Source: Candidatus Poribacteria bacterium (GTDB taxonomy: Bacteria; Poribacteria; WGA-4E; WGA-3G). From it: a stretch of 64,000 bases of DNA. The translations under genes and the position numbers were made by a program. Below the pieces are notes generated by a model. The model worked only from the letters and a program-made list of their open reading frames with translations, was not told the origin of the DNA and ran no database searches. Positions 320-18,191 of this stretch are shown piece after piece (positions within the stretch are counted from its first letter, which is position 1; each line of letters starts with the position of its first letter). The stretch lies in contig JAPPIG010000109.1 of the NCBI GenBank assembly GCA_028820635.1, positions 1 to 64,000 of the forward strand. The letters are read 5' to 3'.

Positions 320-2620
320 TTAAGCCGAAATTGTATACGTTTTGCCTGCTTCCGTGTGAAAGTTAACAACATCCCTTGACTGAGAATACTTAACTCGTTG
401 CCCATCACATGTCACAGAGACAGTACCGGGTGTCCGTACCCAACAATCATTCCCAAGAGTTGATAACAACTGCGCTTCAGTGAGCTTTCCATTCTCCCAC
501 GTCATATCCACTTCAAATCCGCCACGGGCGCGTAACCCTTTAACATATCCTGTATCCCATGCCTTCGGAAGTGCCGGTAGTAGATTAACCTCACCTGCAT
601 GGCTCTGTAGCAACATTTCAACGATACCGGCAGTACCACCGAAATTACCATCAATCTGGAAAGGTGGGTGCGTATCAAACAAGTTCGTCAACGTACACCT
701 CGCGAGGAGTGCTTGTAGATGGTCATAAGCCGCTTCTGCCTCTTCAAACCTTGCAAAGAAGTTGATGAGCCAAGCGCGACTCCATCCCGTCTGTCCACCG
801 CCGTGCTGCAACCGATATTCTAACGATTTCTTTGCCGCCGCCGCCAATTCTGGCGTGCCGCGCAGCGTTATCTGACAACTCGGATGCAGACCATACATGT
901 GGGACATGTGTCGGTGTCCAGGCTCCGGTTCGTCATAATCGAATACCCACTCCTGTAAACGTCCTGTCTTTTCACTAATCTGAAGTGGCGCGAGCTGTTC
1001 AAGGGCAGCGACCAACTCTGCACGGAAATCCACATCACCACCGAGAACATCAATACAAGCGATGCAGTTCGTAAAGAGTTCATGAATAATCTCCAGATCC
1101 ATTGTTGCAGCATAAGTAAAGAGGGAACGTTCACCATCAGGCTTAAGGAAACTGTTTTCGGGTGAGTGTGACGGATTCGTGACGAGTTTACCTGCAACAG
1201 GTGTCCCTTCAGGTGCTTCAACAAGGAAATCAAGTACAAAACGGGCAGCGCCTTTCATCAACGGGTATGCCTGTTTCTTAAGAAATTCCACATCTCCTCC
1301 AAAAAGGTAATGCTCCCACACATGCTCACACAACCAAGCAGCACCCATCGGTGAAATACCCCATATTCCATCAGCAGGCGTTGTAAATCCCCATACATCA
1401 GAGAGGTGGTGTACAACCCAACCCTCAGCACCGTAGTGGCGTTTCGCAGTCTGATTGCCCGGTTCAACGAGTGTTTCCATGTAGTCAAATAGCGGTTTGT
1501 GGCACTCAGCGAGATTACAGACTTCTGGCACCCAATAGTTCATTTGTAGGTTGATGTTAGTATGGAAATCGCTATTCCAAGGTGCTTTCATGTGCTCGTT
1601 CCAAATCCCTTGCAGGTTTGCAGGTAGGCAACCTGGTCGTGAACTTCCCATCAGTAGATAGCGTCCATATTGGAAGTAAAGTGCAACGAGTCCTGGATCT
1701 GCCGCTCCTTCTTTCACAGCTGCTAAACGTTCATCGGTTGGCAGATTTTCTGCATCGGTAGAACCGAGATTAAGGTCAACTCTTCGGAAAAGGGGTTGAT
1801 GTTCTGCAATGTGGTCTGCCCGAATTGCTTCATAAGATTTTGTTTCAACAGATGCAAGATAATTTTCACAAAGTTCATGCGGGTTTCCACTCGCATCCTT
1901 TTGATTAACATAACTTGTTGCTCCAGCAAGTAGAAGGGTAACAGCATTCGCTTCTTTGACAGAGATTCTGTCATTTTCCGACTGAACCTGCCCATCCTTA
2001 ACGTTCAATTGTAAATACGCTGAAAACCTAACAATACCATCGCTACACTGTCCGCTGAGTCTAAGGGTATTGTTGGAGATAGTTTCAACATTGGCATCTT
2101 GTTCCCGCGTCATCGTCGCATCAAAAGTGATGTGCTCTGATGGATCACATTCAATTCGGATAGCAATTATGTTATCTACTGCCGTAGCGAAAACTTCCCT
2201 ACTGAAATTGGCACTACCACAGCGATAGGTTGTTTTCGTTATGCCTGTTTCCAGATCAAGTTCTCGACGATATTCCGTAACCTCTCCATGTGGAAATTCA
2301 AGTATAATATCGCCCAAAGATTGATATGACTTAATTCGATGTGGCACGCCCAACATCGTTTCGCCTGCGAGTTTTGTCGCTTCGTCGTTTTTATCTTCAA
2401 AAAGCAGTTGCTGCACTTTCGGGAGTGCTTCCAAAGCCTTGGGGTTGTTAGTATCTTGAGGAGCACCTTCCCATAGCGTGTCTTCGTTAAGTTGAATGCG
2501 TTCCCGTTGGACACCGCCGAACACCATCGCACCGATCCTACCGTTTCCAACAGGTAGCGCGTCTGTCCACTGTCCAGCCGGTTTGTCATACCATAAAATA
2601 TAATCATTTGTATTTTTCAT
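320..2620 (-). CDS. Glycoside hydrolase family 95 protein, probable alpha-L-fucosidase
   Basis: Probably removes alpha-linked L-fucose (or L-galactose) from glycans by inversion. The 766-residue protein has the GH95 layout: an N-terminal beta-sandwich opening with [21 protein letters not shown], an alpha/alpha-barrel, and a C-terminal beta domain. Family active-site motifs are visible: the asparagine pair in NINLQMNYW, the acid glutamate in SHSPENSF and the aspartate in QIDGNFGG. There is no signal peptide, so it is probably cytoplasmic and acts on imported oligosaccharides. The ATG at 2620 is preferred because AGAGAG lies 8 bases upstream; an in-frame TTG at 2626 is too close to that site. 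The gene follows the last FGE paralogue by 47 bases on the same strand and could be transcribed from that array. Family assignment is firm; the exact sugar is inferred. Confidence 0.9.
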
Positions 2621-2667
2621 AGTCAATTCTCTCTTGTAAGATTATGTAGACGTATCTACAGTAAGAA

Positions 2668-4032
2668 TCAAAACAGTTTATAATGATTTGATTTAAGTTG
2701 TGTATCCCAAGCACATCTGAACCCGATGTTGGCCGCGAACCTTGTTGAATTAGAGGTCACAAGTTTTGTTGAATATAACGTGGTGATGAGGGGTGAACGC
2801 CCACGACGTATAGCTGTCTGAATGGGTTCTGATGAAGTAAACAGTGACCCACCCCGTAAAACGCGATCAGTTGTAACGGTTCGGAAGTTGAATAGCCAAA
2901 AACCTAAATTCTCTTTCGTACTCGCCCCAGCAACTGGATTCCGATCCGGTGAAGAAGTATAATAATTCGGAGCATACTCATCAAGACACCACTCCCACAC
3001 GTTACCCACTATATCATGCAAACCGTAGTTGTTTGCTGGATATTGTCCTACCGAAGTGGTCTCACCAATACCTTTTCCACAAAACACCATATTGGAATCC
3101 ATGAGATCTCCCCATGGATATTTTTGTCCTGTTAATCCTCCGCGTGCTGCTTTTTCCCACTCCGCTTCTGTTGGCAAACTTTTCCCTGCCCATTGTGAGT
3201 ATGCCATCGCCGCATACCAACTAATGTGTGTTACCGGATGGTCATCCTTTCCAACAGGAAAGTTGTTCCCATGCCAATGTTTTAGGTAGTTTCCATCGTG
3301 GTATTTCCCAAAAATAGATAGGATCTTTTTTACTCTGTTCCACTCGTCACGTTTTGATGGTTTCCCCCATTGCGGGTTGGCATCAATAAACACCTTATAT
3401 TGTGCGTTTGTCACAGGATATTTGTCCATATAGAATGTGTCAACGTACACTTTATACGTTGGCTTTTTACGGATTTTTGTTCTTTCGTTACTGCTTCCTA
3501 TTTGGAACTCACCTGCTTGGATAAGCAACATATCTTCTGGAGTAGAGATCCCTAAAGATGTCTTTTCGGGTGTAGGGAATTCCTGTCGCGAGGTTAGATC
3601 AACAGACAGCAATATTTCAGTCTGTAACGTTGCGATGTGTTCAGACCGCTTTTGTGGGTCTTTTAGCGTATCACGCGCTTGGTTTAAAACTGTTCGCCAC
3701 TGTTCTTGCGTTCTACCGTCCGGACGCGGAAGTCCACCCGCACGTAACGATTCACTGTAGCATTTTTTATGTGCCTCGTCAACTTGAGCCGCTATGATAG
3801 TATCACTTTGGTTTTGGAGTTCTCCAATAGATAGTCCCAGAACTTCAAAATAGTTTTTCCGCTCACCAACAATTAATCCCGATGCTTTTAGAATTTCATC
3901 AGCGTCATGAGTAGAGAGACCATACTGCTGTACCGCCTGCTGGAGCAGACCGATACGTTGTTCTGTTGTAATTGACTGAGAAGCAGCACTGAGAATATTG
4001 ATTGCTGTAATGAATTCTTCACGTTTAGACAT
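2668..4032 (-). CDS. J-like / FGE-fold fusion protein, paralogue 7 (distal)
   Basis: Last and longest (454 residues) of seven tandem paralogues. Residues 1-57 are helical (MSKREEF, then LLQQAVQQYGLS), about 60-135 are J-like (YFEVLG, then DPQKR) with RPD in place of HPD, and about 165-445 form the FGE-sulfatase/SUMF1 fold (IPAGEFQIGS, YPVTNAQYK, LPTEAEWEKAARGG, YPWGD, GNVWEWC). The loop between RGGS and GFRC is the longest of the set, near 40 residues, and contains no cysteine, so the copper-binding cysteine pair of true FGE is absent. RGGSLF replaces the usual RGGSW. The C terminus ends in a divergent tail, DTQLKSNHYKLF. It lies 58 bases behind paralogue 6. Function is unknown; a ligand- or client-binding role is inferred. 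Confidence 0.85.
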   Translation of the reverse strand: MSKREEFITAINILSAASQSITTEQRIGLLQQAVQQYGLSTHDADEILKASGLIVGERKNYFEVLGLSIGELQNQSDTIIAAQVDEAHKKCYSESLRAGGLPRPDGRTQEQWRTVLNQARDTLKDPQKRSEHIATLQTEILLSVDLTSRQEFPTPEKTSLGISTPEDMLLIQAGEFQIGSSNERTKIRKKPTYKVYVDTFYMDKYPVTNAQYKVFIDANPQWGKPSKRDEWNRVKKILSIFGKYHDGNYLKHWHGNNFPVGKDDHPVTHISWYAAMAYSQWAGKSLPTEAEWEKAARGGLTGQKYPWGDLMDSNMVFCGKGIGETTSVGQYPANNYGLHDIVGNVWEWCLDEYAPNYYTSSPDRNPVAGASTKENLGFWLFNFRTVTTDRVLRGGSLFTSSEPIQTAIRRGRSPLITTLYSTKLVTSNSTRFAANIGFRCAWDTQLKSNHYKLF

Positions 4033-4090
4033 CTGATCCGTCCACCACTATGTATTATTCAGACTATGCTACTGGATTAAAAACAATAAT

Positions 4091-5452
4091 TTAAGATGTT
4101 ACTGCCTTCACACAACGAAAACCTATTCTGGCGAGTGTAAGTGTTGGCTTGATTTTATAGCGAAAAGCAGAACGAATGTATTGCGGTGAATCAAGCCAAG
4201 AACCACCGCGTAAAACACGAAACGAAGTATTATTCGTTAATTCATTTGTTACTGATTCATCGGTGTTCGCGCCAGAAATCGGGTTACGATGCGGCGAGTG
4301 CGTATAATAATCTGCGTCGTACGTATCAAGACACCATTCCCATGCGTTTCCAGCCATATCATAGAGTCCGTAGCTGTTTGCTGGATATTCCCCAACAGGC
4401 GTGGTATCACCAACACTGCTGTTATAATTTGCCTGAGAAAAATCAATTGTATTGCCCCATGGATATTCCTGTTCTGTTAGTCCACCACGAGCCGCCTTTT
4501 CCCATTCTGCCTCTGTTGGCAACCGTTTACCAACCCAGCGTGCATACGCCATCGCCGCATACCAACTGACCCAAGTTACTGGATGATCGGCTTTCTCTTC
4601 GGGATAGATATTTTCATGCCAATGTTTCAAGTAATCACCGTCGTGGTACCGCTTAGCAATAGATGTCTTCTGTTTTTTGCCCCATTCATACCATTTTGAT
4701 GACTTATGCCATTGTGGGTTAGCAGTTACAAATTCCATATACTGTGTATTGGTTACCAAGTGTTTGTCCATATAGAACGCGTCAACATAAACATTGTGTA
4801 ATGGTTTTTCACTGTTATCTGCCTTACCATTATTGCTTCCCATTTGAAATTCACCCGCCGGAATTAGCATCATGTCTCCAGAAGCATTAGGAGTTGGAAC
4901 TACTTGCGCTGAGTCGACACTTGAAGGCTTCGGCAGTAAGGCATCCTCTGGAGGACTTACAGTTGCCAGTTCCGAGTCATGATATCTATCTTCAGGATTT
5001 GACGTGTCATGCGAAGGTATTTTAGATAAATCCTCTTGAAACAATAATGTAGTGAGATATTGTTGTCGTTTTTGTGGGTCTTTCAGGGTATCACGTGCTT
5101 GATTCAGAAGTGTTCTCCACTGTTCTTGCGTCCTGCCATCTCTACGCGGGAGTCCGCCAGCACGTAACGATTCACTATACTGTTTTTTATATGCTTCGTC
5201 AACGTGAGTCGCGATGGTCTTTTCGTTTTGGTTTTGTAATTCTTCAAGGGAGAACCCTAAGACTTCAAAATAGTTTATCCGCTCACCAACAATTAATCCT
5301 ATTGCTTTCAGAATTTCATTTGCTTCATCAATAGAGAGGTCGTATTGCTGTACTGCCTGCTGAAGAAGTGCATTGCGCTGCTCACTAGTAATAGTTGACG
5401 ATAGCACTTTTAGTGTGTTGACGACTGTAATATATTCTTCTCGTTTGGACAT
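4091..5452 (-). CDS. J-like / FGE-fold fusion protein, paralogue 6
   Basis: 453 residues. N-terminal helices and the J-like domain (NYFEVLGFSLEELQ) are as in its neighbours, with RRD at the HPD position. The linker before the FGE fold is long (about 65 residues) and polar, with runs such as TSNPEDRYHDSE and PPEDALLPKPSS. The FGE part has IPAGEFQMGSNNG, LPTEAEWEKAARGG and GNAWEWC, where Ala replaces the usual Val. The RGGSW-to-GFRC loop (LDSPQYIRSAFRYKIKP) lacks both catalytic cysteines. No signal peptide or membrane segment is visible, so it is probably cytoplasmic. It sits 50 bases behind paralogue 5 on the same strand. Confidence 0.85.
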   Translation of the reverse strand: MSKREEYITVVNTLKVLSSTITSEQRNALLQQAVQQYDLSIDEANEILKAIGLIVGERINYFEVLGFSLEELQNQNEKTIATHVDEAYKKQYSESLRAGGLPRRDGRTQEQWRTLLNQARDTLKDPQKRQQYLTTLLFQEDLSKIPSHDTSNPEDRYHDSELATVSPPEDALLPKPSSVDSAQVVPTPNASGDMMLIPAGEFQMGSNNGKADNSEKPLHNVYVDAFYMDKHLVTNTQYMEFVTANPQWHKSSKWYEWGKKQKTSIAKRYHDGDYLKHWHENIYPEEKADHPVTWVSWYAAMAYARWVGKRLPTEAEWEKAARGGLTEQEYPWGNTIDFSQANYNSSVGDTTPVGEYPANSYGLYDMAGNAWEWCLDTYDADYYTHSPHRNPISGANTDESVTNELTNNTSFRVLRGGSWLDSPQYIRSAFRYKIKPTLTLARIGFRCVKAVTS

Positions 5453-5502
5453 CTACCAATTTACCTTCGTATTATCAGATTAACTAACGAAACAACTGTT
5501 TA

Positions 5503-6798
5503 TTAGTCTATTGCTTTTACACATCGAAACCCGTAACTATAGTATGTGATAATTGGATCTGCACATCCGCAATAATTGACCCGTGCAGCGCGTTCACTAC
5601 TTGCCCAAGAACCCCCACGCAAAACACGAGCACTTGCAATGCTTAAAAAGTTTGTTGTGATTTCACTAACGCTTTTAGCATCTAAACCGGGGTTTCGATA
5701 TGAGGAACTATCATTGTATTCATCAAGACACCACTCCCACACATTACCCACTACGTCATAGACACCGTAGTCGTTAGGTGGGTACTCACCAACAGGTGTT
5801 GTTCTTCTGATATGCATCCCGTAATTCGCCATGTCTATATCAATATGATCACCCCAAGGATATATTTTCCCGATTAATCCACCGCGTGCCGCTTTTTCCC
5901 ATTCTGGTTCGGTTGGTAAACGCTTACCTATCCACTTCGCATAAGCCATTGCTGCATACCAACTTACATCAACAACGGGATGGTCTGCTTTACCTCGCGG
6001 ATAGTTGTTGCCATTCCAAGTTTGTAAGTAATTACCGTCATGATAATTGTCAGGTATCTTCTTTTTCTCCCACTGAGGGTTGGCATTCAAAAAATTCTTG
6101 TATTGCGAATTGGTCACAGGATATTTGTCCATAAAAAACGGACCTAAGTAAACAGTATGTGTAGTAATTCCACTGCCATCTTCATCTTTACCCTGACTGC
6201 CCATCTGAAACCTTCCTGCAGGGATAAATACCATATCATTAGGAACATCAACACTTGGAGCAACCGGTACGGAATCGGCACTTGAGACATCCTCAATCTC
6301 ACTTTCCGGAGTTGGTTCTGAGTCCTCAAATTCGTCATCGGATTGAGGTAAGTTGTGCGGAACAATTTCTGGCAAATCATCTTGGAATAGGAATGTAGCT
6401 AAATATTCTTTCCGCTTTTGTGTATCTATTAAGGTTTCACGCGCTTGATTTAGGATATTACGCCACTGTTCTTCTGTTTTACCATCGGGACGAATGCGCG
6501 CACCGGCGCGCAACGATGCTTTATAGTGCTGCTCATGCGCCGCTTCAACAATGCTTACGATAGCTTGCTCGTCTAATCCTTGAATCTCCTCAATTGAAAG
6601 CGCTAACACTTCAAAATAGTCTACTTCTTCTCCGACTACCAATCCCAAAGACTTTAGAATTTCTGAGGCTTCTTCAACAGAGAGATCATAATTCTGAACC
6701 GCCTGTTTTAGTAACCCACGCCGTTGGATGTCGGTAATACTCGGTGATACAGTTTTGAAGGTGTTAATCACATCAATGAATTCTTCGCGTTTTGACAT
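5503..6798 (-). CDS. J-like / FGE-fold fusion protein, paralogue 5
   Basis: 431 residues. The J-like domain reads DYFEVLALS and ends in DTQKRKEYLA; the HPD site is RPD (IRPDGKT). The linker is strongly acidic (SDDEFEDSEPTPESEIEDVS) and reads as disordered. The FGE fold keeps IPAGRFQMGS, YPVTNSQYK, LPTEPEWEKAARGG, YPWGD and GNVWEWCLDEY. Its RGGSW loop contains a Cys-Gly-Cys, but about 10 residues downstream of where the FGE catalytic cysteines sit, so it is not evidence of activity. It lies 61 bases after paralogue 4. Confidence 0.85.
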   Translation of the reverse strand: MSKREEFIDVINTFKTVSPSITDIQRRGLLKQAVQNYDLSVEEASEILKSLGLVVGEEVDYFEVLALSIEEIQGLDEQAIVSIVEAAHEQHYKASLRAGARIRPDGKTEEQWRNILNQARETLIDTQKRKEYLATFLFQDDLPEIVPHNLPQSDDEFEDSEPTPESEIEDVSSADSVPVAPSVDVPNDMVFIPAGRFQMGSQGKDEDGSGITTHTVYLGPFFMDKYPVTNSQYKNFLNANPQWEKKKIPDNYHDGNYLQTWNGNNYPRGKADHPVVDVSWYAAMAYAKWIGKRLPTEPEWEKAARGGLIGKIYPWGDHIDIDMANYGMHIRRTTPVGEYPPNDYGVYDVVGNVWEWCLDEYNDSSSYRNPGLDAKSVSEITTNFLSIASARVLRGGSWASSERAARVNYCGCADPIITYYSYGFRCVKAID

Positions 6799-6859
6799 GT
6801 ATCATTCGCCTTTAGAATCGATTGGATCTCGGGCAAAATTGAAAAGATGAAATAGTTGT

Positions 6860-8161
6860 TTAGGACTTTATTTCCTTTACACAGCGAAATCCGAAGGTGG
6901 GAAGTGTATCAATAGGATTACCTTTGAATCGGTGAGAAACTCTGACACCCTCGGAACCGACGCCCCAAGGACCGCCACGCAGTACACGAGAGATATTAAC
7001 GTTTGTGAAACGTCTTACAATCTGCTCCATGCTATTTTCACCTGAAAATGGGTTTCTATGTGGAGAACTCTTATAGAAATCCGCATCATACGCATCAAGA
7101 CACCACTCCCATACATTCCCGCTCATGTCGTAAAGTCCGTAACCGTTGACGGTTGAAAGCCCAACTTGTGTAGTATCATCCGGTTTGTAAATGGAATTAA
7201 ATGCCTCTGCCTCTATAGAGTCGCCCCACGGATATTTTTTCTCACCTAACCCTCCGCGTGCCGCTTTTTCCCATTCAGCTTCTGTGGGTAAACGCTTACC
7301 TTTCCACTGTGCATACGCCATTGCTGCATACCAACTCACTTGTGTGACTGGATGGTCACCTTTACCATCCGGATAGGTCCCATCTTCCCAATCCTTCAAG
7401 TAATCACCATCATGATAATCTATCGGAATATGATCATTGAACAGATCCGACTTGCGCCACTGTGGGTTTGCATTAACGAAATCTCCAAATTCTGCATTAG
7501 TCACGGGGTATTTATCCATAAAGAACGCCTCAAGAAAAACGCTATGAATCGGTTGTTCATCTTCGTTTGCTTCTTCGTCATCGGCCCCCATCCGAAATTC
7601 TCCTGCTGGAACATACACCATGCCATCAGGCACATCAATATCAGGCGGAACTGTCTGATGGCTTAATTCCTGACTAATTGTCTTGTCAACGTCAGAAAAT
7701 TCAAAGATAGGAGATGCTTCGCCTCCAAATTGCATGTCCACCTCATCGTGCTGAAGCATGGCAACGTATTCCTGCCTTTTTTGTGGGTCAATCAAGGTTT
7801 CCCTCGCTTGATTCAAAAGTGTTCGCCACTGTTCTTCTGTTCTGCCATCGGCACGAGGACGACCACCAGCTCTTAATGATTCAGCATATAGTTTTTTGTG
7901 TGCAGCATCAACATGCGCTGCGATAGCATCTTCACTGAAGTTTTGCAATTCCTCAATTGAAATGCCTAACACCGCAAAATAATTTTCCTTTTCACCGACA
8001 ATCAACCCTGATGCTTTTAGTATTTCAGCAGCCTCAGTCGCTGAAATCTGATGCTCCTGCATTGCTTGACGAAGGAGTCCTTTGCGTTGTTCGTCGGTAA
8101 TAGTCGGTGAAACCGCTTTCAGTCTATTGATGAAATCTATAAAGGCATCGCGTTCACGCAT
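6860..8161 (-). CDS. J-like / FGE-fold fusion protein, paralogue 4
   Basis: 433 residues. It begins MRERDAF rather than the MSKRE/DEF of the other six. The J-like part (NYFAVLGISIEELQ) has RAD at the HPD site and ends DPQKRQEYVAML. After a linker of about 40 residues the FGE fold follows (VPAGEFRMGAD, YPVTNAEF, LPTEAEWEKAARGG, GNVWEWCLDAYDAD). Its core motif is RGGPWG instead of RGGSW, and the following loop (VGSEGVRVSHRFKGNP) has no cysteine. Same strand and same spacing as its neighbours, so probably one transcript. Confidence 0.85.
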   Translation of the reverse strand: MRERDAFIDFINRLKAVSPTITDEQRKGLLRQAMQEHQISATEAAEILKASGLIVGEKENYFAVLGISIEELQNFSEDAIAAHVDAAHKKLYAESLRAGGRPRADGRTEEQWRTLLNQARETLIDPQKRQEYVAMLQHDEVDMQFGGEASPIFEFSDVDKTISQELSHQTVPPDIDVPDGMVYVPAGEFRMGADDEEANEDEQPIHSVFLEAFFMDKYPVTNAEFGDFVNANPQWRKSDLFNDHIPIDYHDGDYLKDWEDGTYPDGKGDHPVTQVSWYAAMAYAQWKGKRLPTEAEWEKAARGGLGEKKYPWGDSIEAEAFNSIYKPDDTTQVGLSTVNGYGLYDMSGNVWEWCLDAYDADFYKSSPHRNPFSGENSMEQIVRRFTNVNISRVLRGGPWGVGSEGVRVSHRFKGNPIDTLPTFGFRCVKEIKS

Positions 8162-8212
8162 GTTTTAGTCCTATTTAAAATGTATCTGATTTTTAGCATA
8201 TCAAACGAGAAA

Positions 8213-9481
8213 TTAAGACGATACCGGTTTCACACAACGAAAACCGGTGAGACTGTTTGTTTTCCAAGGTGGTAAGAAGCTGCGATTTGAAACACGCACC
8301 TCATGCTCTGCTGAATGCCAGGAACCACCTCGTATCACGCGAGGCTTTTTCTGTTTTGTAAGGGTATTTATGATACTACCTATACTACCACCTGAAACTG
8401 GGTTTCGGCTTTCCGACACCTGATAGAATCTAATGTTCCATTCATCAAGACACCATTCACCTACGTTCCCTACAATGTCACACAGACCGTATTCATTCGC
8501 AGGATACTTCCCTACTGGTGTTGTTTCCCCAACACGCTGATCAAAGTTTGCATTGCGAGCATATATCGCATTGCCCCATGGATATTTTTGCTCAACTAAT
8601 CCACCACGTGCCGCTTTTTCCCATTCAGCCTCTGTTGGCAATCGCTTACCGACCCATTTTGCATAAGCCATCGCCGCATGCCAACTGACCCAATTCACCG
8701 GATGATCAGCTTTTCCTGTTGGATATTTGCCTTTAAACCAATTTTTCAAGTAGTCGGTATCTCGATATTTTCTAAAAATAAGATGATAATCAAACCACCC
8801 AAGATTGCGCCACTGTGGGTTCGCATCAAGAAACTCTTTATATTGTGCATTTGTCACGGGACATTTATCCATATAAAATGCATCTACGTAGACTGTATGT
8901 GCGGGTTTTTCGTCAACGTTGGCATCATAATCGTCGCTTCCCATTTGGAAATCACCAGCAGGGATAAGCACCATACTATCTTGCTCTGAAGTTCTTGATA
9001 GAGTGGTCTCAGTCTTCGGATCAATAAATGCTTCTTCAGAGAAAGATTCGGTGGGAGGTAACGCATCGTTTTGAAGCATTGCAATGTGTGCTTGACGTAT
9101 TTGTCCATCTTTAAGAGTATCACGCGCTTGATTCAGAAGTGCCCGCCACTGTTCTTCTGATTTACCATCAGGGCGCACGCGTCCACCCGCATTCAAAGAT
9201 TCACGATAAAGTTTTTCATGTGCTGCTTCAACTTGCGATATGATGCTCAATTCACTTTGGTTTTGAAAATCTTCTATAGCAAATCCTAACACTTCAAAAT
9301 AGTTTTCCTTTGTACCGATCACCAGTCCTGATGCACTCAGAATATCAACGGCATCTGCAGCGGAAAGATCATGCTGTTGTACTGCTCTGCGCAGAAGACC
9401 CTTGCGCTGTTCTTCTGTGATAGTTGCTGAAACCGATTTTAAATCATCTATGAATGCAATAAATTCATCGCGTTTAGACAT
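8213..9481 (-). CDS. J-like / FGE-fold fusion protein, paralogue 3
   Basis: 422 residues. The J-like domain has NYFEVLGFAIEDFQ and VRPDGKS at the HPD position; the closing motif is degraded (DGQIRQAH instead of DPQKR). The FGE part shows IPAGDFQMGSDDYD and LPTEAEWEKAARGG, with two local departures: MDKCPVTNAQYK carries Cys where the others have Tyr, and GNVGEWC lacks the usual Trp. The RGGSW loop (HSAEHEVRVSNRSFLPPW) lacks catalytic cysteines. It starts 51 bases upstream of paralogue 4. Confidence 0.85.
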   Translation of the reverse strand: MSKRDEFIAFIDDLKSVSATITEEQRKGLLRRAVQQHDLSAADAVDILSASGLVIGTKENYFEVLGFAIEDFQNQSELSIISQVEAAHEKLYRESLNAGGRVRPDGKSEEQWRALLNQARDTLKDGQIRQAHIAMLQNDALPPTESFSEEAFIDPKTETTLSRTSEQDSMVLIPAGDFQMGSDDYDANVDEKPAHTVYVDAFYMDKCPVTNAQYKEFLDANPQWRNLGWFDYHLIFRKYRDTDYLKNWFKGKYPTGKADHPVNWVSWHAAMAYAKWVGKRLPTEAEWEKAARGGLVEQKYPWGNAIYARNANFDQRVGETTPVGKYPANEYGLCDIVGNVGEWCLDEWNIRFYQVSESRNPVSGGSIGSIINTLTKQKKPRVIRGGSWHSAEHEVRVSNRSFLPPWKTNSLTGFRCVKPVSS

Positions 9482-9513
9482 CTCTTAACCTTTAAGAATA
9501 TGCGGATAAAGAA

Positions 9514-10743
9514 TCATGAATATAAAGATTTAACACAACGAAAACCGATCTCAGGATTCGTGAACCGAGGATGATTGGGACAGCGATTAGAGATATGTAA
9601 GTCTTGAACTGTAGTGATCCAGGAGCCACCACGCAAAACACGGAAACTCTTGACTTTCTTGAAATGATTTGTCACACTTTTTATATCTTCCTCTGACAAC
9701 AGATTCCGATGCGGGAAACTCCCATAGAAACCGTATTCATCAAGACACCATTCCCATACGTTACCCACCATATCGTATAAATCGTACCCGTTAGCAGGAT
9801 AAAACTCTACAGGCGTAGTAGAACCGATGTTTTTTCCATAGTTTGCCTTGCCAATATCTACGACATCTCCCCATGGAAATTTTTGACCTACCAACCCACC
9901 ACGTGCTGCCTTCTCCCATTCTGCTTCTGTCGGTAAACGTTTGCCGACCCACTGTGAGTATGCCATCGCAGCATACCAACTAATGTGAACAACTGGATGG
10001 TCATCTTTACCTTCAGGATAGTTATTCCCATACCAGTGGTGCAGGTAGTAGCTATCAAGGTATGATGAAGAGAGAATTCTTGCGACTCCCTGTGTTTTAC
10101 GCCACCTTGGGTTTGCATTGACAAATGCCTTGTATTGTGCATTGGTTACTGGATACTTGTCCATATAGAATGCGTCTACAAAAACGTTCTGTATCGGTTG
10201 TTCATAACTGAATGATTCACCATCATGACTACCCATTTCAAATTCACCTGCTGGAATAAGCTCCATGTTATCAAGATTCACTTTTTGAAGATATAATGGA
10301 GCTGATGGTGTTTCTCCCGTTTCTTCACCATACTGGTAATTCTCAAGGTGCGCGTGTCGTTTTTGTGGGTGTATTAAGGCATCTCTTGCTTGATTTAGGA
10401 TTGTCCGCCACTGTTCTTCTGTTCTGCCATCGGCGCGGGGACGGCCACCTGCCCTCAACGATTCACTATATAGTTTTTTGTGTGCTGTCTCAACGCGATT
10501 TGCGATGACCGATTCACTTTGGTTTTCAAACTCCGGGGCAAATAAACCTAATACCTCAAAATAATCAATTTGCTCACCAATAACCAATCCTGATGCATCA
10601 AGGATATCAGTCGCCTCTTCAACAGTAAGGTCATGCTGCTGTACCGCTTGTCGGAGAAACCCTTTGCGTTGTTCATTAGAAATAGTCGGCGAAGCATTTC
10701 TAACCGCCTGAATGATTGTAATGAATTCATCACGTTTAGACAT
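9514..10743 (-). CDS. J-like / FGE-fold fusion protein, paralogue 2
   Basis: 409 residues, the shortest copy. The J-like domain (DYFEVLGLFAPEF) has RAD at the HPD site and ends HPQKRHAHLE. The linker is short (about 25 residues, EETGETPSAPLYLQKVN). The FGE fold has IPAGEFEMGSHDG, LPTEAEWEKAARGG, FPWGD and GNVWEWCLDEYGF. The RGGSW-to-GFRC loop (ITTVQDLHISNRCPNHP) has a single cysteine, not at a catalytic position. Only 32 bases separate it from paralogue 3. Confidence 0.85.
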   Translation of the reverse strand: MSKRDEFITIIQAVRNASPTISNEQRKGFLRQAVQQHDLTVEEATDILDASGLVIGEQIDYFEVLGLFAPEFENQSESVIANRVETAHKKLYSESLRAGGRPRADGRTEEQWRTILNQARDALIHPQKRHAHLENYQYGEETGETPSAPLYLQKVNLDNMELIPAGEFEMGSHDGESFSYEQPIQNVFVDAFYMDKYPVTNAQYKAFVNANPRWRKTQGVARILSSSYLDSYYLHHWYGNNYPEGKDDHPVVHISWYAAMAYSQWVGKRLPTEAEWEKAARGGLVGQKFPWGDVVDIGKANYGKNIGSTTPVEFYPANGYDLYDMVGNVWEWCLDEYGFYGSFPHRNLLSEEDIKSVTNHFKKVKSFRVLRGGSWITTVQDLHISNRCPNHPRFTNPEIGFRCVKSLYS

Positions 10744-10774
10744 CAGTTAGTTCTCTTTTCAGAATCGGTCAGAT

Positions 10775-12010
10775 TTACCTATTTTTAATAGAAGGTGGTC
10801 CGCTTTCAGTTGTTACTCCGCAGACACAACGGAATCCGATGACATTGAGTGAAAAAGATGGCGATTCCGCGTTGCGATTCGCTGTCCGCACAAACGACGC
10901 TGGAATACGCCAAGAACCGCCGCGTAACACACGGTTTGACTCAACATCTATAAAATGGTTGGCAATCCATTCAATAGTGTTAGCACCGGAAATTGGATTT
11001 CGGGGTGATGAACTCATAGAAACACCTTCATGATATGCATCAAGACACCACTCCCAGACGTTTCCGCACATGTCATGCAAGTCATAACCGTTCGGCGGGT
11101 ACGTTCCCACAGGTGTGGTTTTGCCAACGTTCCAATCATAATTTGCCATAGAAGGATCGGCAAAGTCACCCCATGGATATTTTTGACCTTCAACTCCGCC
11201 GCGTGCTGCCTTTTCCCATTCAGCCTCTGTGGGTAGCCGTTTACCTTGCCACTGTGCATAAGCCATCGCAGCATACCAACTTACATTAACCACCGGATGA
11301 TCAGCAACAGTTTTCGGAAAACTGTTGCCACGCCAATGCCTTAGGTAATCAACATCGTGGTATTTTTTAGGTATGTCGTGCTTGCTCCACTGTGGGTTTG
11401 CATCAACAAATGCCTTATATTGCGCATTGGTCACCGGATACTTGTCAATATAAAATGCGTCAAGAAAAACGGTGTGTATAGGATATTCATCACCTAAAGA
11501 TTCGTCATCATTGCTACCCATTTGAAACTCACCTGCAGGAATTAACACCATGTTGTCAAGATTTTTGGGTTTTGATGCATCGACTATAAAACTTTCTTCG
11601 TGTTGAGTTGCCATGTATGCGCTGCGTTTTTGTGGGTCTATTAGCGTATCACGTGCTTGGTTCAAGAGTACGCGCCACTGTTCTTCCGTTCTACCATCAG
11701 GACGAGGACGACCACCTGCCCTCAACGAAGCATTATAAAGTTTGTTGTGTGCTGCTTCAACCTGGCTTGCGATAGTCGATTCTTTTAAGTTTTGTATTTC
11801 TGTAATAGAGAATCCTAATACCTGAAAATAATCCACCGTCTCACCGATAGCCAATCCTGCTGCATTCAGGATATTAGACGCGTCATCAAAGGTGAGACCG
11901 TGCTGCTGGACTCCTAATCGCAGGAACCCCTTGCGTTGTTTGTCGGTGATTGTTGGGGATGCGGTTTTGAGGGTATTGATAAATGATATAAATTCCTCGC
12001 GTTTGGACAT
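10775..12010 (-). CDS. J-like / FGE-fold fusion protein, paralogue 1 (proximal to dnaK)
   Basis: First copy after dnaK, 411 residues. Residues 1-57: amphipathic helices (GFLRLGVQQHGLTFDDA). Residues about 60-133: J-like fold (DYFQVLG, AAHNKLY, LNQARDTLIDPQKR), with RPD in place of HPD. Residues about 152-400: FGE fold (IPAGEFQMGSNDDE, YPVTNAQYK, HPVVNVSWYAAMAYAQW, LPTEAEWEKAARGG, NVWEWCLDAY, RVLRGGSW, GFRC). The RGGSW loop lacks the two cysteines needed for formylglycine synthesis, so a binding rather than catalytic role is inferred. The ATG has AAGGA 8 bases upstream. The 268-base leader between dnaK and this gene holds two GC-rich palindromes. Confidence 0.88.
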   Translation of the reverse strand: MSKREEFISFINTLKTASPTITDKQRKGFLRLGVQQHGLTFDDASNILNAAGLAIGETVDYFQVLGFSITEIQNLKESTIASQVEAAHNKLYNASLRAGGRPRPDGRTEEQWRVLLNQARDTLIDPQKRSAYMATQHEESFIVDASKPKNLDNMVLIPAGEFQMGSNDDESLGDEYPIHTVFLDAFYIDKYPVTNAQYKAFVDANPQWSKHDIPKKYHDVDYLRHWRGNSFPKTVADHPVVNVSWYAAMAYAQWQGKRLPTEAEWEKAARGGVEGQKYPWGDFADPSMANYDWNVGKTTPVGTYPPNGYDLHDMCGNVWEWCLDAYHEGVSMSSSPRNPISGANTIEWIANHFIDVESNRVLRGGSWRIPASFVRTANRNAESPSFSLNVIGFRCVCGVTTESGPPSIKNR

Positions 12011-12121
12011 ACATTCGTTCCTTCAGTTCAAACTTAAGGGAGGTGGAAGTCGCGCTCATAAACGGTGTGTAAAATTTTGTCATAATTGACCAGAAAGTTC
12101 ACAGTATTTTATACACATTTC

Positions 12122-12134
12122 GCCCCGCTGGGGC
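12122..12134. repeat. Palindrome GCCCCGCTGGGGC, copy 1
   Basis: A 13-base palindrome (GCCCC, 3-base loop, GGGGC) in the dnaK to paralogue 1 gap. It recurs 48 bases on, at 12170-12182, with a similar left flank (acatttc versus acattcc). It could form a hairpin in the leader of the FGE array; whether it terminates or modulates transcription cannot be told. Confidence 0.6.
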
Positions 12135-12169
12135 TTGTGAAGTTTTTGTCGCGTTTCTATAAACATTCC

Positions 12170-12182
12170 GCCCCGCTGGGGC
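12170..12182. repeat. Palindrome GCCCCGCTGGGGC, copy 2
   Basis: Second copy of the same GC-rich palindrome, in the same orientation as the copy at 12122. Together they make a roughly 48-base repeat unit between dnaK and the first FGE paralogue. No T-run follows on the minus strand, so a simple intrinsic terminator is not supported. Confidence 0.6.
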
Positions 12183-12278
12183 TACAAACAGCGCGAACGG
12201 ATGCTTATTGATAATTTCTTTGCAGACTCGCTTATACACTATTTTTTAAAAAGGATGCCTTGTTTTAAAATCTTTTAA

Positions 12279-13874
12279 CTATTCAACTACAAGGTCTTGT
12301 AGGTCAGTTTTTGCTTGGGCAACTTCCTCTTCATTAAGTGTCGGTCGATCAATAATAGAAAAAATGTCGTAAATAGCTGTTGCTCCATCGTTTGAGAGGG
12401 ATGTGGCTGTTACCTCAAGATTCTGGTCTAAGTTATACTTGTAGATGACTTCAATTGGAGAACCTTGGGGTAGACCTGGGGGCAATTCAAGCGTACATTC
12501 ACCCAATTTATATTCGTCAAATAGGTCAATTTCGTCCTTGGGTTGGTCCTGTTCAAGCCCTTGCACTACTTCAATTAAAACCGAGGGTTGATTGTGATCA
12601 ACCGTCAAAAACTTATCGGCAATTTCGCACGGAACAGCAGTCATTTTGGGAATCATCACGTGAATAATATGTTCACGTTGAGAGTTGAGAACGACAAGTC
12701 CAAGATTGTGTGTGGCACCGTCGGTTACAGTTACTTTCGGTGCACCGTCAGGACCAATAAACCGTTCAATAACAGCATCAGGTATATCTGCAGTTTCGGT
12801 TTCGCCTTCGGATATCTGGCGGAGTGTTCCCTGAATTGCAGCGCCGATTGCGACAACTTCGTCAGGATTGACTTCATGTGGATTGATCTCTTTGCCACTG
12901 ATTGTGGCAATCATCTGCTGCACCATAGGCATCCGAGTTGAACCACCGACCAGCAAGATTTTGTCAATATCTGTCCATGTCATCTCTGCTTCTGAAAGGA
13001 CAACATCACATAAGGTTCGACATCTTTCAAGGAGTTCTGCGGTCAGTTCCTCGAACCTTCCGCGCTCCAGTTCCACCCGAGTTGTCTTCCCATTGTAGCC
13101 ACAAACAATTAGTGCCCTTTGCCGTTGAGACAAAGATTCTTTCGCAGCAATCGCATCAAGTTGAAGGTCTTGATACGTGTGCAGGTCTTCTAATGGATTT
13201 TCTCCGTGTTCTATCTCAAACATCTCTGCAACGTGCGTAATAATTTTATCGTCCCAATCCTTACCGCCAAGTCTGTGGTCACCATTTGTTGCGAGCATCT
13301 GTATCTCTGATTCGGAAACCCTCATGATGGTTACATCAAATGTTCCACCACCGAGATCAAATACGAACACATTTTGATTACTCCCTAATTGATCCATGCC
13401 ATAAGCAAGTGCGGCGGCAGTAGGTTCGTTCAGCACTTGCAGGACATTCAAGCCAGCGATTTTTCCTGCGTTGCGGGTAGCCTCCCTTTCGGCATCGTGA
13501 AAATAGGCAGGGACAGTAATAACTGCATCTGTGATTTCTTCATTCAGATATGTCTCTGCATCCTGCTTGAGCTTTGTCAAAACAAGTGCAGAGAGTTCTT
13601 CAGGGGAGTAGTCTTTTCCTTCAAATGTGCGAAAAAATTCCGTTTTGGATTTTCCCATTTCACGTTTGACAAACTCTACGATCTGTTCAGGAACTGCTCT
13701 GGCATTCTGTTTGGCAATTTTCCCGACTGTCACAAGATTGTCCTCAAACATGATTACCGATGACGTAATACGTTCACTTTCTAAATTCGGAATAATCTCT
13801 GGTTGGCCATGTTCATTGATGTGTGCTATCACAGAGAATGTTGTGCCAAGGTCAATCCCAACAACCTTACCCAT
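12279..13874 (-). CDS. dnaK: Hsp70-family chaperone DnaK, lidless form
   Basis: ATP-driven chaperone of 531 residues. The ATPase domain (about 1-375) has GIDLGTTFSV, EPTAAALAYG, DLGGGTFDVT and GGSTRMP. A beta substrate-binding domain follows (about 385-505, with THNLGL and PVxC-like segments degenerate). Only about 25 residues remain after it, so most of the alpha-helical lid of standard DnaK (about 638 residues) is missing. The ATG at 13874 is chosen because AAGGAGG lies 8 bases upstream; an upstream ATG at 13895 lacks this. It overlaps the end of grpE by 8 bases, which suggests translational coupling. It is probably the dedicated Hsp70 of the downstream J-like/FGE proteins rather than the housekeeping copy, since no ordinary dnaJ is present. 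Confidence 0.92.
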   Translation of the reverse strand: MGKVVGIDLGTTFSVIAHINEHGQPEIIPNLESERITSSVIMFEDNLVTVGKIAKQNARAVPEQIVEFVKREMGKSKTEFFRTFEGKDYSPEELSALVLTKLKQDAETYLNEEITDAVITVPAYFHDAEREATRNAGKIAGLNVLQVLNEPTAAALAYGMDQLGSNQNVFVFDLGGGTFDVTIMRVSESEIQMLATNGDHRLGGKDWDDKIITHVAEMFEIEHGENPLEDLHTYQDLQLDAIAAKESLSQRQRALIVCGYNGKTTRVELERGRFEELTAELLERCRTLCDVVLSEAEMTWTDIDKILLVGGSTRMPMVQQMIATISGKEINPHEVNPDEVVAIGAAIQGTLRQISEGETETADIPDAVIERFIGPDGAPKVTVTDGATHNLGLVVLNSQREHIIHVMIPKMTAVPCEIADKFLTVDHNQPSVLIEVVQGLEQDQPKDEIDLFDEYKLGECTLELPPGLPQGSPIEVIYKYNLDQNLEVTATSLSNDGATAIYDIFSIIDRPTLNEEEVAQAKTDLQDLVVE

Positions 13875-14565
13875 TTGTATTGCCTCCTTTCTCATTTAAA
13901 GGAGGTTCACCCGCGGAAGGTGTATACCGAAAAATTGTGACCTCTTCCGGACGGAACACTTTATCTCGCCAGTTGAACCCAATTTTGTGAACTTCTGCCA
14001 CTTTTTGATCTTGGTTTGGATCATCGGATGAAATTACTTTACGCGTTTTGTGCAACTGCCGATCAAGTGTTTCAGGGGAATCTTTATAAGGCGTCACGTC
14101 CATGCGGTATAATACCTCTTCCAGTTTATATCGAAAGTTTTCCAAATTCTGGCGATACTGCGATAGTTCATCCGGAAGTGTATTTTCTTTATTATTGATC
14201 AGCATGTCGTCAAGTTGAGATTCTATAGATAGAAAACTATCGTAAAGTTGAATGAGGTTATGGATAATCGGTTTGTGTAGCACTTCAAGCAGAAAACTTT
14301 CTTTATAGTCTTTCATTTCAGCATACATTTTATCAAACATCTCTGTCTGATTCTGATTCCGAGCGATTTGCTTTTCGAATAGGTCTTGCAACGCAGCTAA
14401 AGTCTGATTTATTTCTGCAAGAAAATTTGGTTGCGGAATTTCTAAGTCATCCGCGCCTGTTTTCTGTTGAGTTGCATCAACATCGCTGCCTTCTTCCAAA
14501 TGTGAATCTGTACCCATATCGGTTTTTAGTTTTGTACCATCATTTTCATTCATGTGCTTACCCAA
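13867..14565 (-). CDS. grpE: GrpE-like nucleotide exchange factor
   Basis: Releases ADP from the Hsp70 encoded next. 232 residues: an acidic N-terminal tail (about 1-50), a long coiled-coil region (ALQDLFEKQIARNQNQTEMF onward), then the C-terminal beta-wing pattern (KIGFNWRDKVFRPEEVTIFRY), which resembles the GrpE signature. The start is ambiguous: a TTG at 14565 has AGAGA 6 bases upstream, while an ATG at 14553 lacks a clear ribosome site. A perfect-consensus promoter lies about 70 bases upstream. Sequence is divergent from housekeeping GrpE but position and fold pattern support the call. Confidence 0.82.
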   Translation of the reverse strand: MGKHMNENDGTKLKTDMGTDSHLEEGSDVDATQQKTGADDLEIPQPNFLAEINQTLAALQDLFEKQIARNQNQTEMFDKMYAEMKDYKESFLLEVLHKPIIHNLIQLYDSFLSIESQLDDMLINNKENTLPDELSQYRQNLENFRYKLEEVLYRMDVTPYKDSPETLDRQLHKTRKVISSDDPNQDQKVAEVHKIGFNWRDKVFRPEEVTIFRYTPSAGEPPLNEKGGNTNG

Positions 14566-14630
14566 AATTCATCTCTGCTATTGTAAGGGTTTTCTTAAAG
14601 GAGGAGGTACTATCCAGCAAAATCTCCTTG

Positions 14631-14659
14631 ATTATATAATGGATTCGGAGGAATGTCAA
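14631..14659 (-). promoter_or_regulatory. Sigma70-type promoter of the grpE-dnaK operon
   Basis: On the minus strand TTGACA (14654-14659) and TATAAT (14631-14636) are separated by exactly 17 bases: both hexamers match the consensus fully. Transcription would start near 14624, giving a 60-70 base leader to grpE. No CIRCE operator was seen. A repeat element is inserted with its target duplication ending 9 bases upstream of the -35 box. Confidence 0.85.
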
Positions 14660-14675
14660 CGCAATCGCTACAGTA

Positions 14676-14999
14676 GCCAGGGCTATTTAGTTTTATGAAT
14701 TACCAGTTGATAAGTGTTACTGAAAGTTTACACCGTAGGTCGGGTAGAGCGAAGCGACACCTATGGGTGTCAATTTTGCGTCTAATCCCTCTTGTTGGAG
14801 GGCTTTGTAAGCCCGATATTGTAAGTCTTAACCTATAAAATCGGGGTTGAAAACCCCTCCAACAAGAAAATATATCCTAAAATTGACACCCGACATGAAC
14901 GAAACGTGTCGGGTGTCGCTTCGCTCTACCCGACCTACAATATAAACTCTCAGTAAAACCTATTAACCTATAATTCTAAAACTAAATTACCCTGAAACA
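14676..14999. mobile_element. Non-autonomous palindromic element (MITE-like) upstream of grpE
   Basis: A 324-base element whose two ends are inverted copies of about 85 bases each, with matching stretches such as ATTTAGTTTTA, TTACTGA and GTAGGTCGGGTAGAGCGAAG. The 8-base sequence CTACAGTA flanks it on both sides (14668-14675 and 15000-15007), which is the expected target duplication. It has no coding capacity. Inside are the cttgttggagggctttgtaa and ggttgaaaacccctccaac modules that recur elsewhere in the window. Confidence 0.75.
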
Positions 15000-15007
15000 C
15001 TACAGTA

Positions 15008-15179
15008 ACATTTAGACTAAACCTATAATTATTGAGACATTTTATACTCAAGAAGATAGTCAAATATCCGGTTGAGTGTAGAATATATAGACCTAAAAAA
15101 TCAAAATTTCGCAACAAATTTTGCATCTGCAAACGTTATACATTGTGAATCGGTTTACGATTTATAAATGAGGGAATGC
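15008..15179. other. AT-rich intergenic stretch
   Basis: Rest of the 14566-15179 gap after the promoter and the repeat element. It is AT-rich and no gene, RNA or clear terminator was recognised. It lies downstream of the sulfatase gene. Confidence 0.4.
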
Positions 15180-16460
15180 TTACGCTGTTTGCCACGGCAC
15201 ACTGCCAGCTTTCTGTGTTTCTTCTTGGAACAAGCGTCCCATCTCCTTATATAGGTCAGTATTTGTCTGCGAAGCATCAGTTGTTTCCAGCGGATCGCTT
15301 GATAGGTCATAAAGTTCTAAAGGTTGAAAAGGCCTATTGTGCAGGAGCTTTATGTCACCACGCCGAACAGCGTGTTGACACTGTCCGAGGAACTGTTGTC
15401 CGCCCTCCCTTCGCAACCAGTAAAGAAGACGGTCGGAGAAGTCCTGTTTTTCTCCTTGAAGTGTTTGCCAAATTGAACGTCCCTCAATTTCGTGTTTGAT
15501 TGGTACATCAGCAACCTCACATGCTGTAGGGTAGAGATCCATAAGCATTCCTACCTGATCTGTAACATGTCCTTCTGGAATATGTCCTTGCCACATTGCA
15601 CAGGTGGGGACGCGTATACCGCCTTCGTACATTTCACCTTTTTGCCCACGCAATGGACCGTTGTTAGCACCAACTTGCATCGCACCACCGTTGTCCGATG
15701 TGTAGATAACGAGCGTATTGGAAAGTTGACCGGTATCCTCAAGTGTATCCAGCACGCGTCCGATACCAGCATCCATGTGTTCAACAAGTGCCACGTATTT
15801 TGCGCGTTGTGGGGAGATGTCCGGTTCACGTTCCCTCACTCGTTCAATCCAGTCGTCAGGCGGTTGAATCGGTGTATGCGGCGCGTTGTAAGCGAGATAA
15901 AGGAAGAAAGGATGAGATGTATGTGCGTGAGTTCGAATAAAGTCCACGCTCCAATCTGAGAAGAGGTCTGTAGCGTGTCCTCTTGGATCAATCGTGTCGA
16001 AGTCGTGCCGCATGTAGTTAATCTGATGTCGGAGATGCGTGTAATAGTCGTCCATCATATCACCGAGAAAACCGTGAAAATGGTCAAAGCCGCGTTTGCA
16101 CGGATGGTTCTCGTCTTCAAGTCCCAAGTGCCACTTCCCAATGAGCGCTGTGCGATAATCTTTCTGTTTCAATATTGAAGGAAGCGTGATAGCATCTTGT
16201 CGGAAAAAACCCCAGTTGTTCTGTGCATGTGTGCGTATCACACCGGGGACACCGACTCTATCGGGGTAGCGTCCAGTCATAAGTGATGCACGGCTCGGAG
16301 AACAGACGGAGGAATTTGCATAAAATTGTGTAAAGCGTACGCCACCTGCAGCAATTCTGTCTATGTTAGGGGTTTGAATTGAAGGTCCGTTGTGTGCAGA
16401 AATATCGCCATATCCGTGATCATCAGCGAGGATAAGTAGAATGTTCGGTGATTTTGCCAT
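15180..16460 (-). CDS. Cys-type sulfatase (arylsulfatase family)
   Basis: Hydrolyses a sulfate ester, substrate unknown. 426 residues with the N-terminal metal-binding aspartates (LLILADDHGYGD), the formylglycine signature CSPSRASLMTGRYP, and later DNGG and GKWHLG motifs typical of the family. The active-site Cys must be converted to formylglycine; the FGE-fold proteins upstream lack the catalytic cysteines and are unlikely to do it. No signal peptide is visible. The ATG at 16460 is preferred: GGAG sits 6 bases upstream, whereas it abuts the alternative ATG at 16466. The gene lies 44 bases behind the TPR gene on the same strand. Confidence 0.93.
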   Translation of the reverse strand: MAKSPNILLILADDHGYGDISAHNGPSIQTPNIDRIAAGGVRFTQFYANSSVCSPSRASLMTGRYPDRVGVPGVIRTHAQNNWGFFRQDAITLPSILKQKDYRTALIGKWHLGLEDENHPCKRGFDHFHGFLGDMMDDYYTHLRHQINYMRHDFDTIDPRGHATDLFSDWSVDFIRTHAHTSHPFFLYLAYNAPHTPIQPPDDWIERVREREPDISPQRAKYVALVEHMDAGIGRVLDTLEDTGQLSNTLVIYTSDNGGAMQVGANNGPLRGQKGEMYEGGIRVPTCAMWQGHIPEGHVTDQVGMLMDLYPTACEVADVPIKHEIEGRSIWQTLQGEKQDFSDRLLYWLRREGGQQFLGQCQHAVRRGDIKLLHNRPFQPLELYDLSSDPLETTDASQTNTDLYKEMGRLFQEETQKAGSVPWQTA

Positions 16461-16504
16461 ATTCATCTCCGTATATGATTTGATTGTTTTTTAAGGATGT
16501 GCAG

Positions 16505-17668: not shown

Positions 17669-17691
17669 CTTTATCTGTCCTTATCAAATTA

Positions 17692-18179
17692 GGTTGTGTT
17701 TACATTTGAAAAGTATTGACTTTATGCGGACATTTTATTCTATTGTATTTATGAAAACTGAAAAAACAGACAAGTCCCAAGAACTACCCCGTTCCATCAA
17801 TGACGCAGCCTGGGGAACCATTTTGCCATTTCTCCAAGCGTGTCCAAACGTTTATGTTGGTAATCCAGAAAACTGCAGACGGTTCCTCTCTGCTCTTGTT
17901 TGGATGACGAAAGAAGGCACTACTTGGCGCGCTATACCTAAAGTCTACGGCTATTGGAACACTATCTATCACCGGTTCGGTAGATGGTGCGATATAGGTG
18001 TTTTTCAAGCACTACACGAACATTTTCACGATGTTGGCGAGATTTCCGCTATTCTCCTTCATCGTCTAAAACAGTATCATCGCGTCGCAACACGGTATGA
18101 AAAATACGCAGTCCGGTATCTCGGTTTTGTCTATTTCGCATCAATACTCATGGCAAGATAAGAAAATGTAGACACTACC
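17692..18179 (+). mobile_element. Defective IS5-family insertion sequence (internally deleted)
   Basis: A 488-base element with imperfect terminal inverted repeats: GGTTGTGTTTACATTTG at the left and the complement of AAAATGTAGACACTACC at the right, matching at about 13 of 17 positions. A TA dinucleotide flanks both ends (17690-17691 and 18180-18181), consistent with the 2-base duplication of some IS5 subgroups. It carries one shortened transposase frame and cannot transpose by itself. Confidence 0.75.
17751..18161 (+). pseudogene. IS5-family transposase, internal deletion of the catalytic core
   Basis: 136 residues from the ATG at 17751. Residues 1-95 match the N-terminal helix-turn-helix part of IS5 transposases (CRRFLSALVWMTKEGTTWRAIP, then YGYWNTIYHRFGRW). 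The reading frame then passes straight into the usual C terminus (LLHRLKQYHRVATRYEK). The middle with the DDE residues is gone, near nucleotide 18040, but the frame is kept. It may still bind the element ends. Confidence 0.8.
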
Positions 18180-18191
18180 TAGCACAAATCG

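Follow-up and report, generated by a model that had tools for sequence, protein, structure and literature searches.

Seven tandem J-like/FGE-fold fusion genes beside a lidless dnaK in Poribacteria look like a chaperone-driven recognition system

A 64,000-nt stretch of a Candidatus Poribacteria genome (the window; contig C123 of a 5.97-Mb assembly, code G000) carries grpE, a dnaK whose product lacks the alpha-helical lid, and seven consecutive paralogous genes whose products join a helical N-terminal module and a J-like domain to a C-type-lectin (CLec) fold of the formylglycine-generating enzyme (FGE) type. The set has the look of a recognition system driven by a chaperone, apparently one not described before. 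We give a slightly better than even chance to its being a dedicated Hsp70 adaptor system, with conflict (anti-invader or self/non-self) recognition as the likeliest setting.

Seven paralogues with a J-like domain that lacks HPD

A preliminary description, made from the DNA letters, had read this locus as grpE, dnaK and seven consecutive genes on one strand, separated by 31-61 bp. Open reading frame (ORF) coordinates confirm the layout, all on the minus strand (Table 1), and the spacing: the gaps among the seven genes are, in order, 31, 32, 51, 61, 50 and 58 bp, while dnaK lies 268 bp from gene 1 and overlaps grpE by 29 bp. The three-part architecture proposed there (helical N terminus, J-like domain, FGE fold) likewise holds for all seven proteins, which are 409-454 aa long and 51-61% identical in pairwise comparisons over aligned columns. 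No transmembrane (TM)-like stretch was found in the seven (maximum Kyte-Doolittle value 1.32), and they look cytosolic.

Pfam DnaJ makes no call on the J-like domain at E≤1, and when all six frames of the genome were searched with PF00226, none of the five matches lay inside the array. Profile comparisons and structural models nevertheless support a J fold. The profile of the seven paralogues matches the J-protein Jac1 (3uo2, E = 9.1e-4), and hhalign aligns columns 58-135, the full domain, with four J-domains of the same genome that carry the His-Pro-Asp (HPD) motif (for one of these targets, Prob 62, E = 7.4e-5). An AlphaFold2 model of residues 1-140 (mean predicted local distance difference test score, pLDDT, 86.7) has its helices in J order and, together with the profile comparisons, points to the four-helix J fold. 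Among the top 20 Foldseek matches in the PDB, 17 are titled J, DnaJ, Hsp40 or HscB (J-kinase chimeras counted); the remainder are P58(IPK), which we take to contain a J domain, and two untitled chains from large assemblies. The first nine matches have a probability of 1.00, with a best E value of 0.086 and none at E≤0.001.

HPD itself occurs in none of the 118 aligned J-like rows, and the domain need not act as an ordinary J domain does. In contrast to HPD, 117 of these rows retain Tyr92, Arg103, Asp105, Gly106 and Trp112, the remaining row being gapped; the divergent J-like copies of genome G063 stand outside the 118.

A lidless DnaK that has lost the partner of HPD

The window DnaK (538 aa) ends after the substrate-binding beta domain: its Pfam HSP70 match stops at profile position 508 of 599, and its alignment to a 615-aa DnaK stops at residue 508 of the latter. 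The nucleotide-binding domain (NBD) retains its ATPase residues, and D8, K70, D194 and T199 are kept in all 31 readable array-type DnaKs (32 rows in total; the DnaK of locus L054 is spread over two ORFs, of which the 383-aa piece is gapped at position 167).

Arg167 of DnaK is, in the available parts of two reports, the partner of the HPD aspartate, and DnaK R167H suppresses DnaJ D35N (PMC7289447, PMC5519331); Arg167 substitutions are described in the former as raising basal activity somewhat and making J stimulation ineffective (PMC7289447). The equivalent residue is Gln in 29 and His in 2 of the 31 readable array-type DnaKs, and Lys in a DnaK fusion of G063. Arginine is retained in canonical DnaK, in an Hsp70-vWA protein encoded on contig C125 of the source genome, in a similar G063 protein and in an extra Hsp70 of locus L072. 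The linker residue equivalent to Leu390 is Thr, Lys or Ser in all 32 array-type rows, a change that is not specific because two rows of the vWA kind are also altered (to Arg). Both halves of the HPD-Arg167 contact are lost in the same loci, which fits an orthogonal pair. From these alignments the J-DnaK contact appears rewired, and the loss of Arg167 may represent one or few events, the sequences being related.

Distribution, linkage and an empty site

The co-occurrence search proposed in the preliminary description was run over 84 genomes of the phylum, and J-like/FGE genes were not found free of dnaK genome-wide. The N-terminal/J-like family is present in 29 genomes, all within one Poribacteria family of 58 genomes. 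Lidless dnaK is detected in 28 of the 84 at E≤1e-150, in G063 only as the NBD within a fusion; in G054, missed at this threshold, two dnaK genes and grpE lie next to the J-like gene. Lidless dnaK thus accompanies the J-like family in 29/29 genomes, against 0/55 of the others at E≤1e-150 (Fisher test, phylogeny ignored: 3e-23 over 84 genomes, 7e-17 within the 58-genome family).

All 35 related loci recovered in a scan of named genomes are titled Candidatus or uncultured Poribacteria, the scan being seeded with two short peptide patterns that distant relatives in other phyla could escape. dnaK is present in 30 of the 35. Two of the dnaK-less loci (L059, L061) start near a contig end and three (L058, L060, L065) have no dnaK nearby; for all five, the same genome, as assigned by isolate name, carries a dnaK array at another locus. 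Of the 30 dnaK loci, 18 have grpE next to dnaK, 7 have an ankyrin-cluster gene there instead, and 5 have neither. The preliminary description had spoken of a complete Hsp70 cycle set: dnaK and the J-like/FGE fusions do stand as a unit, but grpE is not constant and HPD is absent. In the 12 dnaK loci without grpE, a GrpE search with relaxed settings also came up empty. The ankyrin-cluster gene lies directly upstream of dnaK in L047, L049, L050, L053, L055, L062 and L066. That this cluster (c10) might be a diverged GrpE was considered and rejected, as Pfam shows ankyrin repeats in the one member tested (L047).

In the congener G041, the sulfatase-like and GH95-like genes that flank the window cassette (95% and 92% identical, respectively) stand side by side, with nothing of the block between them. 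Homology to the window breaks off at 15173 and is picked up again at 2672, which is the stop codon of gene 7; 5 bp separate these two points in the G041 sequence. On the evidence of this one genome, the block is present or absent as a unit of about 12.5 kb. The flanking genes are adjacent without it and are therefore not part of it. Two other genomes were considered as second empty sites; in G044 the contig stops short of the junction, and in G029 the flanking gene had no match. A search of IMG/VR for virus-borne relatives gave 22 pattern matches, none confirmed.

The lectin-fold domain and its exchange

Pfam FGE-sulfatase matches all seven paralogues (7.7e-53 to 2.2e-69). A full-length model, built from 63 of 93 sequences (the 7 of the window plus 56 of 86), shows the FGE/C-type-lectin fold (mean pLDDT 85.6), with 2q17 as best structural match (E = 1.1e-22, 34% identity over the aligned region) and a further match to TvpA (2y3c, E = 1.5e-14). 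Among 96 paralogues, variability sits in the lectin-fold loops, those of the tail ranking with the most variable columns, and the nearest relative of 93 of the 96 proteins lies in another genome. Among 45 listed of 71 between-genome pairs, nonsynonymous divergence (dN) of the tail is below synonymous divergence (dS) in 43, equal in 1 and above it in 1; the pairs were chosen by >72% identity, hence by closeness, and rare swaps could escape. Two mosaic pairs show uneven identity along the chain (L050/L066, 63% in the N-terminal module vs. 94% in the FGE core; L042/L052, 93% in the FGE core vs. 69% in the tail). The repertoire appears old and largely stable, with shuffling of its modules. Split J-like/FGE copies occur inside the arrays of L041, L043, L056, L059 and L063; they could reflect turnover or, in some cases, sequencing errors.

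The binding domain is also exchanged for other folds. The N-terminal and J-like module carries WD40 in seven proteins from six loci (L044, L045, L046 twice, L048, L052 and L063; verified by Pfam in one of the seven). At locus L106 of G063 a DnaK NBD, the N-terminal module and GrpE are fused in one ORF, which argues for partnership, and the neighbouring ORF joins the module and J-like domain to ankyrin-like repeats, as read from sequence.

Intermediates connect window-type arrays to a second locus of the source genome (L007, G000:C125:1-20000; features within 3852-19674), which encodes the Hsp70-vWA protein, GrpE, a lidless Hsp70 (70% identical), a protein combining J-like, HYDIN-like immunoglobulin (Ig) and TM parts, and TM-FGE proteins, with a caspase-domain gene upstream. 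The HYDIN-like Ig matches here and in L069 are below cut-off. The two TM-FGE proteins of C125 read as identical across much of the FGE domain, with differing tails. In L071-L075 the J-like to FGE architecture occupies one chain of 1018-1047 aa, and a secreted-looking FGE protein of 608-634 aa is encoded upstream of grpE; the member tested, from L072, has caspase and PEGA domains. A BsaWI-type restriction endonuclease gene (L070:4249-4947; Pfam RE_BsaWI, 6.9e-31) lies upstream of the J-like/dnaK locus of L070, adjoining a gene of the same cluster and another that, judged by its sequence, probably encodes a methylase.

Comparison with known systems

The preliminary description had named no homologous system, and none identical was met in the literature, where subscription papers were thinly covered and absence from print is not established; a related class has, however, been published. 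In the available text of Kaur et al. 2020 (PMC7159879), the Hsp70/GrpE/DnaJ-FNIII (fibronectin type III) theme of the GAP1-N2 conflict systems shares with the window cassette an Hsp70 with GrpE and a DnaJ-domain fusion. Some of these systems have a second Hsp70, as the C125 locus described above does, and in some FGE-type domains are the variable parts. The window has Hsp70, GrpE and the J fusion, though its J-like domain lacks HPD. It differs in the tandem array of J-like fusions, the loss of HPD and the lack of a recognised effector or TM part. The genome has no match to PF20013 or PF20014 (GAP1-N2/GAP1-M), no GTPase was recognised in the cassette, for which no aimed search was made, and an FNIII-repeat protein is absent from it, C125 and L069 showing only the HYDIN-like Ig matches. 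Because GAP1 was not found, we place the array outside the class, to which it is most likely related without being a member. Poribacteria are unmentioned in the available main text of that paper (PMC7159879). FGE-type CLec domains have also been proposed, in the accessible part of another report, as sensors in a different conflict architecture (PMC10907252).

With canonical J-proteins (DnaJ, HscB/Jac1) and their DnaK, the system shares the J fold, a fused recognition domain and a neighbouring Hsp70; it differs in lacking HPD, in a longer helix II and loop, and in a DnaK without Arg167 and lid. A fusion of an HPD J-domain to FGE also exists in the genus (G000:C9:10905-11915; L113, L116), with canonical HPD read in the G000 copy. 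Matches reaching its J part occur in at least 13 genomes of the genus at E≤1e-90. This fusion has no dnaK within its 3.2-kb G000 locus and is present also in G041 and G044, in which no array was found.

A proposed adaptor mechanism

In the mechanism we infer, each of the seven proteins would bind a different target through its C-terminal lectin-fold domain, and the constant N-terminal module and HPD-less J-like domain would dock on the co-encoded lidless DnaK, which, aided by GrpE, would spend ATP to alter the state of the target-bound complex. Because this DnaK lacks a lid, a fast assembly/disassembly switch is favoured over a refolding chaperone as its role. Loss of HPD and Arg167 would keep the pair apart from housekeeping DnaJ and DnaK, and recognition in a conflict setting would be the likeliest role. 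For an adaptor of this kind speak the co-occurrence, the empty site of G041, the G063 fusion and the Arg167/HPD changes, as well as the kept ATPase residues, the swappable binding domains, the loop variability and the lack of TM stretches; the caspase domains in the related loci C125 and L072 speak for the conflict setting. The more specific proposal of a chaperone-powered receptor repertoire, in which an orthogonal Hsp70-J pair with reciprocal loss of HPD and Arg167 serves as a shared signalling or remodelling engine for interchangeable recognition proteins, is offered tentatively, at somewhat below an even chance.

Several observations weigh against the adaptor interpretation. The extra Hsp70 of L072 (555 aa, of lidless length, in a two-Hsp70 locus) retains Arg167; it was set apart from the array-type rows, its sequence following the vWA-fused kind. 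The conserved RxDG (Arg-x-Asp-Gly) loop is absent from the J-like copies of G063, and grpE is missing from 12 of 30 dnaK loci. Binding faces are mostly conserved across species among close relatives, which suits fixed targets over an arms race. No effector gene was recognised in the cassette or consistently beside the arrays, most neighbours being without a Pfam search. PADLOC, run on gene 1, grpE and dnaK, gave no match for the first two and a weak Hsp70-region match for dnaK (PDC-M61B, 2.3e-5).

The J-like domain might instead be a vestigial or structural tether that holds DnaK without driving its ATPase, leaving DnaK as an ATP-dependent scaffold. The universal loss of HPD in the 118 rows would suit this, as would the reported ineffectiveness of J stimulation after Arg167 substitution (PMC7289447, available part) and the altered Leu390 equivalent in all 32 array-type rows, non-specific though that change is. 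Near-invariant loop and helix residues are, however, unexpected of a vestige, and the DnaK ATPase residues are kept; we regard a tether as unlikely. The Hsp70 set could also serve solely to fold difficult FGE-type domains, the J-like part being fused to its own client; this is consistent with the two parts sharing one chain and with lidless dnaK in 29/29 family genomes. Yet many other FGE genes of the same genome match over the FGE part only, and WD40 and ankyrin repeats substitute for the FGE fold behind the same module, and this reading seems quite improbable.

Two further readings concern the lectin fold itself. The variable proteins of diversity-generating retroelements (DGRs) share the FGE/CLec fold, as the TvpA match shows, and the place of variability, the tail being among the most variable parts of the paralogues; hypervariable, antigen-receptor-like proteins diversified by a retroelement were therefore considered. 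Against this, the assembly (93.7% complete) has no RVT_1 match, tail dN is below dS in 43 of the 45 listed close pairs, nearest relatives lie in other genomes for 93/96 proteins, orthologous faces are mostly stable and a J-like part is fused. A DGR-diversified system is largely refuted by the missing reverse transcriptase and by purifying selection on the tail in close pairs, and we consider it very improbable. Sulfatase activation has in its favour the fold, shared with 2q17, and an adjacent putative Cys-type sulfatase gene, whose cluster (c2) has 21 members across loci. The flanking genes, however, stay adjacent without the cassette in G041, and the catalytic Cys pair of the C-terminal loop occurs in none of 89 tails parsed from 107 J-linked FGE ORFs (18 were not parsed), the seven window tails included; activation of sulfatases by the known chemistry is therefore unlikely. 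The Cys/copper mechanism is refuted in the parsed tails. Cys-less enzymes of the FGE fold exist (PvdO), so other chemistry is conceivable, but that the array proteins generate formylglycine for the neighbouring sulfatase is scarcely credible.

Features of the window

Coordinates are collected in Table 1. The promoter-like site upstream of grpE is the sole 12/12 consensus match among 39 sites scanned, shuffled sequence giving a mean of 27.1 sites. A search of the window that tolerated up to 3 mismatches found no heat-shock element CIRCE (controlling inverted repeat of chaperone expression). We take the upstream flanking gene to be a sulfatase from its CSPSR motif, and its counterpart on the other side is presumably a GH95-type glycosidase.

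Table 1. Features of the cassette, its surroundings and the G063 fusion locus (window positions unless a contig is named).
Feature	Position	Strand	Remarks
Whole cassette	2673..15172	-	Bounds from comparison with the empty site of congener G041
Promoter-like site TTGACA-17-TATAAT upstream of grpE	14631..14659	-	12/12 consensus matches, pattern match only
grpE, TTG start as listed	13867..14565	-	Pfam GrpE 4.4e-12
Lidless dnaK, ATPase motifs kept, Arg167 equivalent = Gln	12279..13895	-	Pfam HSP70 7e-121
Gene 1	10775..12010	-	Helical module aa 1-57, J-like 58-138, FGE/C-type-lectin fold about 151-396
Gene 2, architecture as gene 1	9514..10743	-	
Gene 3, architecture as gene 1	8213..9481	-	
Gene 4, architecture as gene 1	6860..8161	-	
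Gene 5, architecture as gene 1	5503..6798	-	
Gene 6, architecture as gene 1	4091..5452	-	
Gene 7, architecture as gene 1 plus insert in variable tail	2668..4032	-	
Flanking sulfatase-like gene (CSPSR motif), outside the system	15180..16466	-	Adjoins the other flank without cassette in G041
Flanking GH95-like gene, outside the system	320..2626	-	Present without cassette in G041
Short ORF	17694-18161	+	Presumably resembles part of an IS5-type transposase
ORFs of L106 (G063:C22)	4331-6313 and 6942-9089		

Significance

Should docking of the J-like domains on this DnaK prove real, the array would provide a natural, orthogonal Hsp70-cochaperone pair that lacks HPD, the motif held to define J proteins. 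The same loci would then offer a natural test of the HPD-Arg167 mechanism and an instance in which a repertoire of receptors shares one Hsp70 as its engine; they would also give Poribacteria a candidate recognition system.

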